Shown piece by piece: positions 39,639-43,367 of a stretch of 64,000 nt of DNA (positions within the stretch are counted from its first letter, which is position 1; every line of letters begins with the position of its first letter). The position numbers and the translations under genes were made by a program. The notes beneath the pieces were generated by a model. That model did not search any database. It was given only the letters and a program-made list of their open reading frames with translations, and was not told where the DNA came from. Origin of the DNA: Demequina sp. NBRC 110057 (GTDB taxonomy: Bacteria; Actinomycetota; Actinomycetes; Actinomycetales; Demequinaceae); NCBI RefSeq assembly GCF_002090175.1, contig NZ_BBRN01000003.1, positions 682,001 to 746,000 on the forward strand, read 5' to 3'.

Positions 39639-40580
39639 CTACCCGAGCAGCTCGACACCAAACTCGGACACGACGGCGCGCACCTCGTCCAGGTAGCGCT
39701 CCGCCTGCCGGGTCAGCGGGATCGCCGAGTGGCCGATCCACCCGATCTCGATGTGCTCGTCGACCTCGAGCGGGATGGCGGCGATCTCGGGGTCGAGTTC
39801 GCCGCTCACGATTCCCGTCGAGATGGTGTAGCCGCCCAGACCGATCATGAGGTTAAAGATGGTCGCGCGGTCGGACACCCTGATCTCCTGCTCGGAGGAC
39901 AGCGTCGAGAGGATCTCCTCGGCGAAGTAGAACGAGTTGTTGGCGCCCTGGTCGAACGTCAGCCGCGGCAGGCCCTCCAGGTCGGCGAGGGTGGCGCGGT
40001 CGCGTCCGGCGAGCGGGTTGCTGCGGGCCACAAAGATGTGGGGACGCGCGAGGAAGAGCGTCCTGAACGCGAGGCCCGAGTCGCGCAGCAGCTTGTCGAC
40101 GACCTTGCGGTTGAAGTCATTGCGGTAGAGGATGCCCACCTCGCTGCGGAGCGTCCTGACGTCCTCGATGATGTCGAACGTGCGGGTCTCGCGCAGCGCG
40201 AATTCGTACTCCGCCGCCTCGGAGGCCTTCACCATCCGCACAAAGGCCTCCACCGCGAACGAATAGTGCTGCGCGGAGACCCCGAGGAGGCGCCGCGACG
40301 GCGGCCGCCCCAGGTAGCGCTGCTCCAGCAACTCCACCTGCTCGACGACCTGCCGCGCGTAGCCCAGGAACTCGGCGCCGTCATCGGTCAGGCTGACACC
40401 CCTCGCGGACCGCACCAGGAGCGCGCGCCCCATGCGCGACTCGAGATCCTTCATCGCCGCGGACATCGTCGGCTGGGCGACGTAGAGCAGGTCGGCCGCG
40501 GCGGAGATGGATCCCTCCGCCGCCACCTCGATGAAGTAACGCAACTGTTGAAGGGTCAGACCGCTCGCTCCCTGTGCCAT
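39639..40580 (-). CDS. LysR-family regulator divergent from the mesX-mesD cluster
   Basis: This 313-residue protein has an N-terminal HTH (LTLQQLRYFIEVAAEGSISAA, QPTMSAAMKDLE) and a LysR substrate-binding domain. The ATG at 40580 has AGGA seven bases upstream. It is transcribed away from the mesX-mesD-flavin reductase genes with 120 bases between, the usual arrangement for a LysR activator controlling its neighbours. The co-inducer is probably a methionine-pathway metabolite or a sulfur signal, by inference from context. Confidence 0.92.
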   Translation of the reverse strand: MAQGASGLTLQQLRYFIEVAAEGSISAAADLLYVAQPTMSAAMKDLESRMGRALLVRSARGVSLTDDGAEFLGYARQVVEQVELLEQRYLGRPPSRRLLGVSAQHYSFAVEAFVRMVKASEAAEYEFALRETRTFDIIEDVRTLRSEVGILYRNDFNRKVVDKLLRDSGLAFRTLFLARPHIFVARSNPLAGRDRATLADLEGLPRLTFDQGANNSFYFAEEILSTLSSEQEIRVSDRATIFNLMIGLGGYTISTGIVSGELDPEIAAIPLEVDEHIEIGWIGHSAIPLTRQAERYLDEVRAVVSEFGVELLG

Positions 40581-40589
40581 AGGCAAATC

Positions 40590-40605
40590 CTATACAAAGA
40601 CATAG
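40590..40605. promoter_or_regulatory. Candidate LysR binding site between regulator and mesX
   Basis: CTAT-N8-ATAG (40590-40605) is an inverted repeat in the most AT-rich part of the 120-base divergent region, ten bases upstream of the regulator start. LysR proteins typically bind such short interrupted dyads. No clear -10 or -35 for mesX can be assigned. Confidence 0.45.
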
Positions 40606-40700
40606 ATCAGTCGAGTTACCCGATATCAGGGCTTTGGCCGCACCATGGAGTCATTCATCCACCAGGGCCGACCCCGGCCTCCCTGACCGGATTGGCGATC

Positions 40701-41699
40701 ATGGCGCACGAGTTCACCTTTAGCCTCACCACCACCCGCTTCGACGAGGACTACACGCCGTCGACGAACACCCGCGCGACCACCAACTTCGCGAACCTCG
40801 CGCGCGGGGAGCAGCGGGAGCAGAACCTGCGGGCCGCGATCACCATGATCAACCGCCGCGTCAACGACCTGGTGCGGTGGGACAACCCCCACGGCGACCG
40901 CTACACGCTCGACCTCGACATCGTGTCGGCCGAGTTGCAGTTCGAGGCCGATGGCGCTGCCCAGAGCTTTCCGCTGCTCGAGGTCCTCGACATTCACGTG
41001 GTGGACCAGAACACCGGCACGCGCCGCCACGGCATCGTCGGCAACAACTTCTCCTCCTACGTGCGCGACTACGACTTCAGCGTGCGTCTGCCCGAGGCCA
41101 GCGCCGGTGGCGGCAAGCCCGTCCTCCCCCAGGACTTCGGCGACCTGCACGGCAAGCTGTTCCAGCACTTCGTCGACTCCGAGGCCTACCGCGAGCGCTT
41201 CCCCCAGGCGCCCGTGATCTGTATCAGCGTGTCGACGAGCAAGACGTACGTGCGGACCACGAATCTCCACCCCGTGCTGGGCGTCGAGTACGTCCTGGAG
41301 CAGGAGGGCGTGTCGCTCACGGACGCCTACTTCGCCAAGATGGGGCTCCAGGTCCGCTACTTCATGCCCGCCGGCAGCGTCGCCCCGCTCGCCTTCTACT
41401 TCCGCGGCGACCTGCTGAACGACTACTCGGACCTGCAGCTCGCCGGGACCATCGCGACGATGGAGACGTTCCAGAAGATCTACCGGCCCGAGATCTACAA
41501 CGCGAACGCCTCGGCCGCCGCGACGTACCGCCCCAGCCTGGACAGCGGCGACTTCTCGCGGACGCAGATCGACTACGACCGCGTCGAGCGCAGCGAGCTG
41601 GGCGCCCTGCAGGGCAAGTACACCGCGGAGCACTTTATCGAGCCCCACCGCGAAATCCTCGAGCAGTGGGCCGCCGACTTCCTCGCGCCCGTCGCCTGA
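40701..41699 (+). CDS. mesX: DUF1852 family protein, MesX partner of the MesD methionine synthase
   Basis: This 332-residue soluble protein begins MAHEFTFSLTTTRFDEDY and contains NNFSSYVRDYDFSVRLPE and LAFYFRGDLLND. I recognise it as DUF1852. Published work on folate-independent methionine synthases names this family MesX and reports that it is needed, together with oxygen, for MesD function; I rely on recall for that. A putative oxygenase role is inferred. It is followed 17 bases later by mesD. The ribosome site before 40701 is weak, and no other in-frame start fits. Neighbouring flavin reductase suggests a reduced-flavin requirement. Confidence 0.85.
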   Translation: MAHEFTFSLTTTRFDEDYTPSTNTRATTNFANLARGEQREQNLRAAITMINRRVNDLVRWDNPHGDRYTLDLDIVSAELQFEADGAAQSFPLLEVLDIHVVDQNTGTRRHGIVGNNFSSYVRDYDFSVRLPEASAGGGKPVLPQDFGDLHGKLFQHFVDSEAYRERFPQAPVICISVSTSKTYVRTTNLHPVLGVEYVLEQEGVSLTDAYFAKMGLQVRYFMPAGSVAPLAFYFRGDLLNDYSDLQLAGTIATMETFQKIYRPEIYNANASAAATYRPSLDSGDFSRTQIDYDRVERSELGALQGKYTAEHFIEPHREILEQWAADFLAPVA

Positions 41700-41716
41700 A
41701 CGACCAAGGACGCCTC

Positions 41717-42790
41717 ATGACGCACACCCTCCTCCCGACCTCCATCGTCGGAAGCCTCCCCAAGCCCTCCTGGCTCGCCGCCCCCGAGACCCTGTGGTCC
41801 CCGTGGACGCTCGAGGGCGACGCCCTCGTCGAGGGCAAGCAGGACGCCCTGCGCATCGCGGTGCACGAGCAGACCCGCCGCGGCATCGACATCGTCAGCG
41901 ATGGCGAGCAGACGCGCCAGCACTTCGTCACCACCTTCATCGAGCACCTGAGCGGCGTCGACTTCGAGCGCCGGGAGACGGTGCGCATCCGCGATCGCTA
42001 CGACGCGAGCGTGCCCACCGTCGTCGGCGCCGTCACGCGAGAGCGCCCAGTCTTCGTGGAGGACGCCGCGTTCCTGCGCGCCACCACCGACCGCCCCATC
42101 AAGTGGGCCCTGCCCGGGCCCATGACGATGGTCGACACGCTCTTCGACGCCCACTACCGCAGCCGTGAGCAGCTCGCGTGGGAGTTTGCCGGGATCCTCA
42201 ACCAGGAGGCGAAGGAGCTCGAGGCGGCCGGGGTGGACATCATCCAGTTCGACGAGCCCGCCTTCAACGTCTTCTTCGACGAGCTGAAGGACTGGGGAGT
42301 CGCCGCGCTGGAGCGCGCGACCGAGGGCCTCAAGGCCCAGACCGCCGTCCACATTTGCTACGGCTACGGCATCAAGGCGAACACCGACTGGAAGGCGACG
42401 CTCGGGTCGCAGTGGCGCCAATACGAGGAGTCCTTCCCCCTCCTCCAGCGCTCGTCGCTCGACATCGTCTCGCTCGAGTCGCAGAACTCCCACGTGCCGA
42501 TGGACCTCATCGAGATCCTGCGCGGCAAGAAGGTCATGCTCGGCGCCATCGACGTGGCCAACCACGCCATCGAGACGCCCGACGAGGTCGCCGACACCCT
42601 GCGCAGAGCCCTGACCTTCGTGGACGCCGAGAACCTCATCCCGAGCACCAACTGCGGGCTCGCCCCGTTCCCCCGCGACATCGCCCTGGCCAAGCTCAGC
42701 GCCCTTAGCGCCGGCGCGAGCATCGTCCGCGACGAGCTCGCCGGCGCCTCGGTGCCGGACGAGCGCGCCGCGACCGCCGCCCATGCCTAG
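41717..42790 (+). CDS. mesD: Core-type methionine synthase MesD (MetE C-terminal domain homologue)
   Basis: This 357-residue protein corresponds only to the catalytic half of cobalamin-independent methionine synthase. The zinc ligands are all present: His212 and Cys214 (VHICYG), Glu254 (VSLESQ) and Cys313 (TNCGLAPFPR). The N-terminal MetE domain is entirely absent, and the protein is a complete short enzyme rather than a fragment. The MesX partner marks it as the MesD class, which is reported to make methionine from homocysteine without a methyl-tetrahydrofolate donor. AAGGA lies six bases before the ATG. Confidence 0.88.
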   Translation: MTHTLLPTSIVGSLPKPSWLAAPETLWSPWTLEGDALVEGKQDALRIAVHEQTRRGIDIVSDGEQTRQHFVTTFIEHLSGVDFERRETVRIRDRYDASVPTVVGAVTRERPVFVEDAAFLRATTDRPIKWALPGPMTMVDTLFDAHYRSREQLAWEFAGILNQEAKELEAAGVDIIQFDEPAFNVFFDELKDWGVAALERATEGLKAQTAVHICYGYGIKANTDWKATLGSQWRQYEESFPLLQRSSLDIVSLESQNSHVPMDLIEILRGKKVMLGAIDVANHAIETPDEVADTLRRALTFVDAENLIPSTNCGLAPFPRDIALAKLSALSAGASIVRDELAGASVPDERAATAAHA

Positions 42791-42800
42791 GAGCGCCACC

Positions 42801-43367
42801 ATGGCACGTCGTCCCGTCCCCGCCTCGGAGCTCGCGGCGCCCGCGCACGACCTGGCGCCCTCGCTGTCCGCGGACGACTTCAAGGCGGTCTTCCGCGGGC
42901 ACCCGGGCGGAGTCGCCGTGATTACGGCCGATGCCGGCGACGGTCCCGTCGCCCTCACCGCCTCCTCCGTGTCGTCGGTGAGCGCCGAGCCGCCGCTGCT
43001 GGTGTTCTCCATCTCCGCCTCGTCATCCGCCTCCGACGTGCTGTCGCGCGCCGAGACCGTCGTGGTGCACCTGCTGGACGCCCGCGACCTCGAGCTCGCC
43101 AAGCTGGGAGCAGCGCGCGGCATCGACCGCTTCGCGGCGACGCACCAGTGGACGCGTCTCGCGACGGGCGAGCCCGTCTATCACGACGTCCGCGCATGGG
43201 TGCGCTGCGCCGTGATCGACCGCCTGCACGCAGGCTCCTCCACGATCTTCGCCGCGCAGGCGCTCGAGTCGCACATCGAGCGCGACGTCGACCTTGCCGG
43301 CAGCGAGGGTGCGCTCGTGTACCACGACCGCACGTGGCACCGGCTGGGCGATCACTCGCGCATCTGA
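42801..43367 (+). CDS. Flavin reductase domain protein in the methionine cluster
   Basis: This 188-residue protein is of the flavin-reductase-like split-barrel family: HPGGVAVITADAGDGPVALTAS and SVSAEPPLLVFSIS form the FMN-binding core. Members supply reduced FMN or FAD to two-component monooxygenases. The ATG at 42801 has AGGAG eight bases upstream (an earlier ATG lies inside the mesD end). As third gene of the mesX-mesD operon it probably feeds reduced flavin to MesX. That partnership is inferred from gene order. Confidence 0.9.
   Translation: MARRPVPASELAAPAHDLAPSLSADDFKAVFRGHPGGVAVITADAGDGPVALTASSVSSVSAEPPLLVFSISASSSASDVLSRAETVVVHLLDARDLELAKLGAARGIDRFAATHQWTRLATGEPVYHDVRAWVRCAVIDRLHAGSSTIFAAQALESHIERDVDLAGSEGALVYHDRTWHRLGDHSRI

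Follow-up and report, generated by a model that had tools for sequence, protein, structure and literature searches.

A MesX/MesD methionine synthase cassette with a neighbouring flavin reductase gene in Demequina sp. NBRC 110057

We identified a cassette of four genes in a 64,000-nucleotide stretch of Demequina sp. NBRC 110057 (Actinomycetota; contig NZ_BBRN01000003.1, positions 682,001 to 746,000). This whole stretch is called the window, and coordinates are counted from its first nucleotide. A lysR gene on the minus strand diverges from mesX, mesD and a flavin reductase gene on the plus strand, and the cassette is a real and well-conserved actinobacterial member of the published MesX/MesD system. 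With moderate confidence we propose that it encodes a regulated auxiliary methionine synthase in which MesX uses diffusing reduced flavin mononucleotide (FMN; reduced form, FMNH2) and oxygen, the reductase of the cassette being one of several possible suppliers. In separate lineages, unrelated FMN reductases stand beside mesX and mesD; a need for reduced flavin, on which the literature has a one-line remark, thereby gains comparative evidence. Where MesD obtains its methyl group matters for central metabolism, as the route yields methionine aerobically with neither folate nor B12.

The four genes and the published system

The genes of the cassette are as follows.

39639–40580, minus strand: LysR-type regulator (HTH_1, PF00126, 3.2e-20; LysR_substrate, 3.8e-7)
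40701–41699, plus strand: mesX (DUF1852), putative oxygen-dependent, methyl-supplying partner of MesD (PF08908, 1.2e-161, profile positions 1–323 of 323)
41717–42790, plus strand: mesD, core methionine synthase without the folate domain (NF006589, 644.6 bits; 3rpd_A, 2.1e-174)
42801–43367, plus strand: flavin reductase, PF01613 family (1.5e-29)

All four were recovered by Pfam and NCBIfam profiles, with matches far beyond chance, in the arrangement described by an earlier note made from the sequence alone. The DUF1852 identity that the note gave to mesX is borne out by the full-length match to PF08908, 'Putative oxygenase MesX' (537.6 bits against a cut-off of 25). MesD is, as the note had it, a half-length MetE homologue (357 amino acids). 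Pfam matches it only at PF01717, so it lacks the folate-binding half, and its score against the NF006589 methionine synthase model lies far above the cut-off of 392 bits. The nearest solved structure in a sequence search is 3rpd.

The start of lysR is more likely the ATG at 40580 than the TTG at 40586, to which the open frame extends, and that of the reductase more likely the ATG at 42801 than the codon at 42783. A possible ribosome-binding site for the former reductase start overlaps the mesD stop codon, and translation of the reductase is probably coupled to that of mesD. The gap between mesX and mesD is 17 bases, and the three plus-strand genes would form an operon.

MesD and MesX were named by Price, Deutschbauer and Arkin in 2021 (PMC7857596). 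Their genetics in other species showed that MesD needs MesX and oxygen, and neither methyl-folate nor cobalamin. They also found mesD and mesX sufficient in Escherichia coli without metE or metF, noted the frequent presence of a putative flavin reductase near mesXD, and predicted MesX to be an enzyme with a flavin cofactor that oxidises its substrate. The earlier note had treated complementation by mesD alone as contrary to its reading; that outcome was not seen in the published E. coli assay (PMC7857596). These profile matches and the published system together support the folate-independent methionine synthase that the note had recognised. Among the open-licence papers that our literature searches brought up, we saw no report identifying the methyl donor, the MesX fold or a comparative pattern of reductases. 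The flavin-reductase idea and the need for oxygen are already in print; added here are a candidate operator, a structural lead and comparative support for a role of reduced flavin.

Alignment places the zinc ligands of MesD, four as the earlier note had counted them, at H212, C214, E254 and C313, and its homocysteine ligands at S13, E64 and D179; the correspondence to MetE and 3RPD follows the excerpts of PMC7857596 and the alignment. All seven are kept in 123 aligned loci, save in one stretch that ends before the last cysteine. This alignment comprised the window and the 123 loci above 450 bits out of 130 with a match; some are near-duplicates, and one (L001) is the window itself. The seven loci outside it are two stretches holding the MetE of the window genome, four stretches of a frame-broken genome (G632) and one locus (L124) that keeps all seven ligands, as do four loci fetched later (L199–L202). 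Given these conserved ligands, MesD would bind zinc and turn homocysteine into the thiolate, and the methyl group would come from MesX, not from methyl-folate or cobalamin, in the oxygen-dependent reaction to which genetics in other bacteria points.

A diverged branch of MesD was found in cassettes of the order msuE-mesX-mesD (L124, 6100–7116; L200, 5731–6747; L201, 5656–6672; L202, 5925–6941). Its members are 56–57% identical to the window protein and 92–94% identical to one another, and the one in L200 is annotated as 2-hydroxypropyl-CoM lyase. In the Rhizobium plasmid pMK-2 (L198, 5009–6020) mesD is split over two frames and has no coding sequence in the gene table; either a pseudogene or an error in sequencing may explain this.

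Flavin reductases beside mesX and mesD

Neighbouring genes were tallied in 80 loci nearest to the window by MesX similarity. This set overlaps a sample of genomes of the same order (L039 and L140, for example, look like the same contig), so the two rates are not independent estimates. The gene mesD lies 3' of mesX in 80/80 loci, and a relative of the window LysR (more than 250 bits) is present in 73. An intact PF01613 reductase neighbours the pair in 24 loci (23 after mesD and one beyond lysR); in two loci the reductase is broken, and in the remaining 54 none is adjacent, although two of these (Stenotrophomonas and Xanthomonas) carry an MsuE-type reductase directly 5' of mesX. Of the 30 order-sample genomes besides the window genome, eight have the adjacent reductase and one has it broken, which with the window gives nine intact and one broken in 31 genomes. 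The profiles behind the neighbourhood counts were built from the adjacent reductases themselves, and the search thus favours that type; an independent Pfam search of the 31 genomes agrees. The earlier note had proposed a survey of the co-occurrence of the reductase with DUF1852 and held that its absence would be contrary evidence. In the survey the reductase does co-occur, as a recurrent third gene and not as the fixed one that the note had implied.

Several stretches end early (L059 inside mesD; L076, L145 and L153 within 1.5 kb downstream of mesX). The tallies leave out L001 and L082–L118, which are short stretches or repeats re-fetched as L133–L163. The fourth carrier from the genus of the window (L163, genome G632) was counted apart; in its assembly, which is 50% complete, the frames of all three plus-strand genes are broken, perhaps through sequencing errors. 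Loci L199–L202 were picked by MsuE similarity and enter no adjacency rate.

The 31 mesX genomes (approximately 120 Mb) hold 103 Pfam matches to PF01613, of which ten, including the broken one, immediately follow mesD. The remaining 93 are scattered at approximately 0.8 per Mb, a background at which adjacency in ten of 31 genomes by chance is out of the question. None of the 31 genomes is without a PF01613 match, and where no reductase is adjacent (21 genomes) the family occurs elsewhere, which fits weakly with a need that can be met from anywhere in the genome. The cassette reductase is the sole PF01613 match in the window genome (G000), in two genomes of the same genus (G503 and G514) and in G469. 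Since it is the only PF01613 protein in the three carriers searched within its genus, the effect of its loss would be easy to test there.

The adjacent PF01613 proteins of 15 compared loci fall into three groups, one from Actinobacteria, one from Acinetobacter and Pseudochrobactrum, and one from Paracoccus and Croceibacterium. Between groups the reductases are 22–34% identical, while the MesX proteins of the same loci are 55–67% identical; within Actinobacteria the two diverge roughly in step. The cassette reductase reaches no NCBIfam equivalog cut-off (RutF comes nearest, with 68 of 254.75 bits), and the Paracoccus and Croceibacterium proteins prefer models of the StyB/HpaC type. A non-homologous FMN reductase of the MsuE type (PF03358) lies directly 5' of mesX in three loci of Burkholderiales and Xanthomonadales that were not selected for MsuE (L124, L074 and L080); L199–L202 are further cases, found by an MsuE search. 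The L124 protein scores 251.8 bits against TIGR03566, where the cut-off is 212.5. We read this pattern as repeated recruitment of interchangeable FMN reductases beside mesXD, with diffusible FMNH2 as the shared need. The pattern thus suggests, beyond the published remark, that the system needs reduced flavin. A contig labelled Bacillus subtilis SK6B4 (L081) also carries a mesX-mesD-reductase locus, with a layout and scores near those of Pseudochrobactrum (L073); it is perhaps a contaminated assembly.

A number of observations weigh against this reading. No adjacent reductase of either family is found in 52 of the 80 loci, although among these L059 is a locus for which this cannot be told and L070 has a PF01613 gene approximately 5 kb away. 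Brevibacterium (0/3), Dietzia (0/4), Rhodococcus (0/3) and Curtobacterium (0/3) have none, and Microbacterium has one in 5/30. Among 18 plasmid regions, chosen for spread from 60 listed of 209 plasmid records, five have PF01613, one has MsuE and twelve have neither. Both broken reductases are in Glutamicibacter loci in which mesX and mesD are open; the remnants are pieces in different frames in L034 (10072–10603) and the first part only in L039 (10073–10270). PF01613 also occurs in 13/14 control genomes, and finding it in all mesX genomes is therefore weak evidence. RutF is the best NCBIfam model for the window reductase (weakly) and for those of Acinetobacter (68–69 versus 186–216 bits), and one old, fast-diverging gene could therefore account for both the actinobacterial and the Acinetobacter groups. 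In the available excerpts of PMC7857596 the reductase is not part of the E. coli complementation, and for Sphingomonas koreensis, where a reductase is near the cassette, mesD and mesX are the only genes of this system named as rescued by methionine. Finally, neither by sequence nor by a significant fold match (Pfam, PDB and Foldseek) is MesX tied to any flavoprotein.

These points would suit a reductase that is a mere accessory of general redox or sulfur physiology near methionine genes, with MesX needing no flavin: it is not beside mesX in most loci, it has decayed in the two Glutamicibacter loci, and it had no part in the complementation. We nevertheless regard this explanation as rather improbable. 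Against it stands the immediate adjacency in several phyla of two non-homologous reductase families, against the sparse PF01613 background elsewhere. In Acinetobacter baumannii, moreover, B12 lowers the DUF1852 gene (log2 -8.3) and, together with it, a flavin reductase two locus tags away (log2 -2.5), as given in the available excerpts of PMC12892962. Chance arrangement or annotation artefact, for which one could cite only that adjacent reductases occur in a minority of loci, is barely credible; the strength of the profile matches, the adjacency of mesX and mesD in all 80 loci, the conserved gene order and the shared genomic position of these genes within the genus (four carriers) all contradict it. 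Under our proposal the third gene would make FMNH2, for which any cellular FMN reductase could substitute, and for this reason the neighbouring reductase would often be missing, variable in type and dispensable in E. coli. Repeated recruitment also agrees with the E. coli result, as host reductases could have served there.

The genes downstream of the cassette in the 82 reductase-less loci are varied. Of eight checked by Pfam, two are aldo/keto reductases, two have no match, and the others are one secretion ATPase, one GNAT protein, one formate/nitrite transporter and one HAD hydrolase. A conserved alternative third gene was rejected, as these eight share no substitute.

The MesX protein and the source of the methyl group

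We infer that MesX uses flavin, most likely as freely diffusing reduced FMN together with O2. The arrangement of a putative O2-dependent enzyme beside a small FMN reductase (PF01613 or PF03358) is like that of the MsuD/MsuE and HpaB/HpaC types, which are two-component FMNH2-dependent monooxygenase pairs. Unlike those, MesX is placed by Pfam in its own family only, and the reductase is no constant partner.

Across 119 distinct MesX sequences of near-full length, the most distant at 55% identity to the window protein, dozens of positions are invariant, including H150, H190, E94, E196, D123, D125, E264, D293 and E296. MesX might then be a metal-dependent oxygen enzyme, for example a non-haem Fe(II) enzyme with two histidines and a carboxylate, whose metal, or a protein centre, would be held in the reduced state by the reductases; reduced flavins can reduce ferric iron. 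The invariant residues would be enough for such a site, and the published oxygen dependence (PMC7857596) speaks for it. However, Pfam gives MesX no family but PF08908, and MsuE is by its family name an FMN reductase, and we consider a metal centre unlikely. The usual partner of MsuE is an FMNH2-dependent sulfonate monooxygenase.

A confident AlphaFold2 model of full-length MesX has a mean predicted local distance difference test (pLDDT) score of 90.4. MesX has no significant PDB match by sequence, and the model has no Foldseek match at E ≤0.001 in the PDB or in a viral library. VIA-align of the full model gave Z scores up to 4.1, mostly to acyltransferases with some MHC-like and SMC/Rad50 rows. 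As these searches of the full model gave no clear match, residues 1–243 were predicted alone and searched again (mean pLDDT 79.4, with the stretch 116–131 poorly modelled). Judged by title, GNAT or GNAT-like enzymes make up 48 of the 50 listed rows, with Z only 4.0–5.5, values that by the tool's own note may reflect merely a common arrangement. One such row is 1y9k_D (Z 5.5, root mean square deviation 4.3, 127 aligned). Known flavin-oxygenase folds are not among the listed rows, which is not evidence against such folds.

The N-terminal part of MesX thus weakly resembles GNAT acyltransferases, a lead to acyl-CoA chemistry from a predicted model. In a speculative extension, to which we give little credence, a GNAT-like MesX would bind an acyl-CoA such as acetyl-CoA, FMNH2 and O2 would cleave it oxidatively, and the methyl group left on MesX or a small carrier would be passed by MesD to homocysteine. 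If true, this would be an aerobic counterpart of taking a methyl group from acetyl-CoA, with FMNH2 coming from recruitable reductases.

The mesX upstream region and the distribution of the cassette

The region between lysR and mesX contains four recurrent elements.

40579–40605, no strand assigned: candidate LysR operator ATAG-N7-CTAT-N8-ATAG, overlapping the lysR start codon (alignment of upstream regions)
40615–40625, plus strand: conserved GTTACCCGATA, possible mesX promoter element (kept across actinobacterial upstream regions)
40640–40649, plus strand: conserved GCACCATGGA, possible -10 region
40666–40679, plus strand: small leader palindrome GGCCG-ACCC-CGGCC, 5' of mesX (recurs in many actinobacterial leaders)

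The operator, shared by actinobacterial loci, was aligned in 18 upstream regions and is full in 82 of 120 distinct upstream sequences; none of the 18 proteobacterial sequences in that set has the full motif. An exact copy is found once in each of 20 of the 31 mesX genomes, always just upstream of mesX, whereas a reversed-pattern control gave two matches. When one mismatch is allowed there is no enrichment (31 matches versus 32 for the control). Since exact copies occur only at mesX, the LysR protein is most likely a local regulator with a single target, acting on this operon alone through its predicted binding to the palindromic site at its own start codon. The regulon offered no route to the methyl donor, as exact copies pointed to no other target gene. 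Two of the 11 one-mismatch matches were opened (L189 and L191) and lie near an apparent leuC and near MMPL-like and MarR-like genes (names read from the frames); these sites were not taken as targets.

The PF08908-metE2 operons of Proteobacteria resemble the cassette in placing mesX and mesD under a LysR-type regulator, there one of homocysteine methylation; they are assigned to the regulon of MetR, which responds to homocysteine, in the available excerpts of PMC4239095. Homocysteine is therefore a reasonable guess for the ligand of the LysR protein here. However, the MetR site of Proteobacteria is ATGAA-N5-TTCAT, in contrast to the operator in the window, whose LysR need not be a MetR orthologue. 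No MetR model is among the best 25 of the 49 NCBIfam matches of this protein, although no search was aimed at MetR models or sites.

Both GTTACCCGATA, as a promoter element, and GCACCATGGA, as a -10 region, are possible assignments based on conservation. Two loci (L029 and L040) have no such leader; there the mesX start codon comes within a few bases after GCACCATGGA and directly after the GCACCATGG element. Many actinobacterial mesX leaders contain a GGCCG-N4-CGGCC palindrome and a GATTGG element before the start codon (40640–40700 in the window), and the palindrome shows some paired exchanges (L005, L031, L034 and L039). RNAalifold gave no consensus structure across 71 leaders, which are 73 of the 82 full-motif leaders chosen for a GATTGG-like element, minus two identical ones. 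There is no Rfam match at the gathering score in the window and no credible one in 40500–40800. We make no claim for a riboswitch or other RNA element in the mesX leader.

The window genome (2.73 Mb) also encodes MetE (Meth_synt_1, 9.6e-95) and MetF (MTHFR, 1.9e-73). It has no S-methyl_trans match and hence no MetH. A second, weaker match to the MTHFR family was observed at G000:C5:468351-469088 (53 bits). The cassette is thus an additional route to methionine, independent of B12 and folate by analogy with the published system, and would work beside MetE and MetF. The earlier note had called the cassette self-contained; the gene set is indeed present, but the description is weakened by metE and metF in the same genome.

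Among the systems described in the available excerpts of PMC7857596, those of Acinetobacter baylyi (ACIAD3523/ACIAD3524, with the reductase ACIAD3522) and S. koreensis belong to the same families, with a reductase nearby and the ligands kept. The window differs from both in its divergent LysR with its own candidate operator and in a genome with metE and metF and no metH. Its reductase is 24% identical to the mesXD-adjacent reductases of two other Acinetobacter loci (not ACIAD3522). The same excerpts list Actinobacteria among the carriers and give MesD as the apparent sole methionine synthase of Paenarthrobacter aurescens TC1. This strain (L004) has the same lysR / mesX-mesD-reductase layout, with MesX 72%, MesD 87% and the reductase 71% identical to the window proteins. 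As the window genome also has MetE and MetF, P. aurescens TC1 is the cleaner model. Strains with MesD homologues are reported to be tolerant to nitrous oxide in the available excerpts of PMC13059711.

The occurrence of mesX is sporadic, with 3 of 346 genomes in a phylum sample, 31 of 297 in the order sample and 4 of 47 in the family. Comparison of three loci with the window shows the cassette flanked by the same two neighbours in each of the four carriers within the genus. These neighbours are 4.4–5.8 kb apart in the four carriers and, by matches reaching both inner ends, 2.0–2.6 kb apart in nine of the 40 mesX-less species; in others the spacing is 0.2 kb (G605) or approximately 4 kb (G433 and G595), and elsewhere the order is reversed. 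A single site of gain or loss within the genus is likely. The system is also widely mobile, as MesX matches occur in 209 plasmid records. On two plasmids the epoxyqueuosine reductase QueH, a cobalamin-free counterpart of QueG, is annotated near mesXD (L122, 1058–1726, Acinetobacter lwoffii; L131, 4076–4747, Robbsia), hinting at plasmid clusters of B12-independent enzymes.

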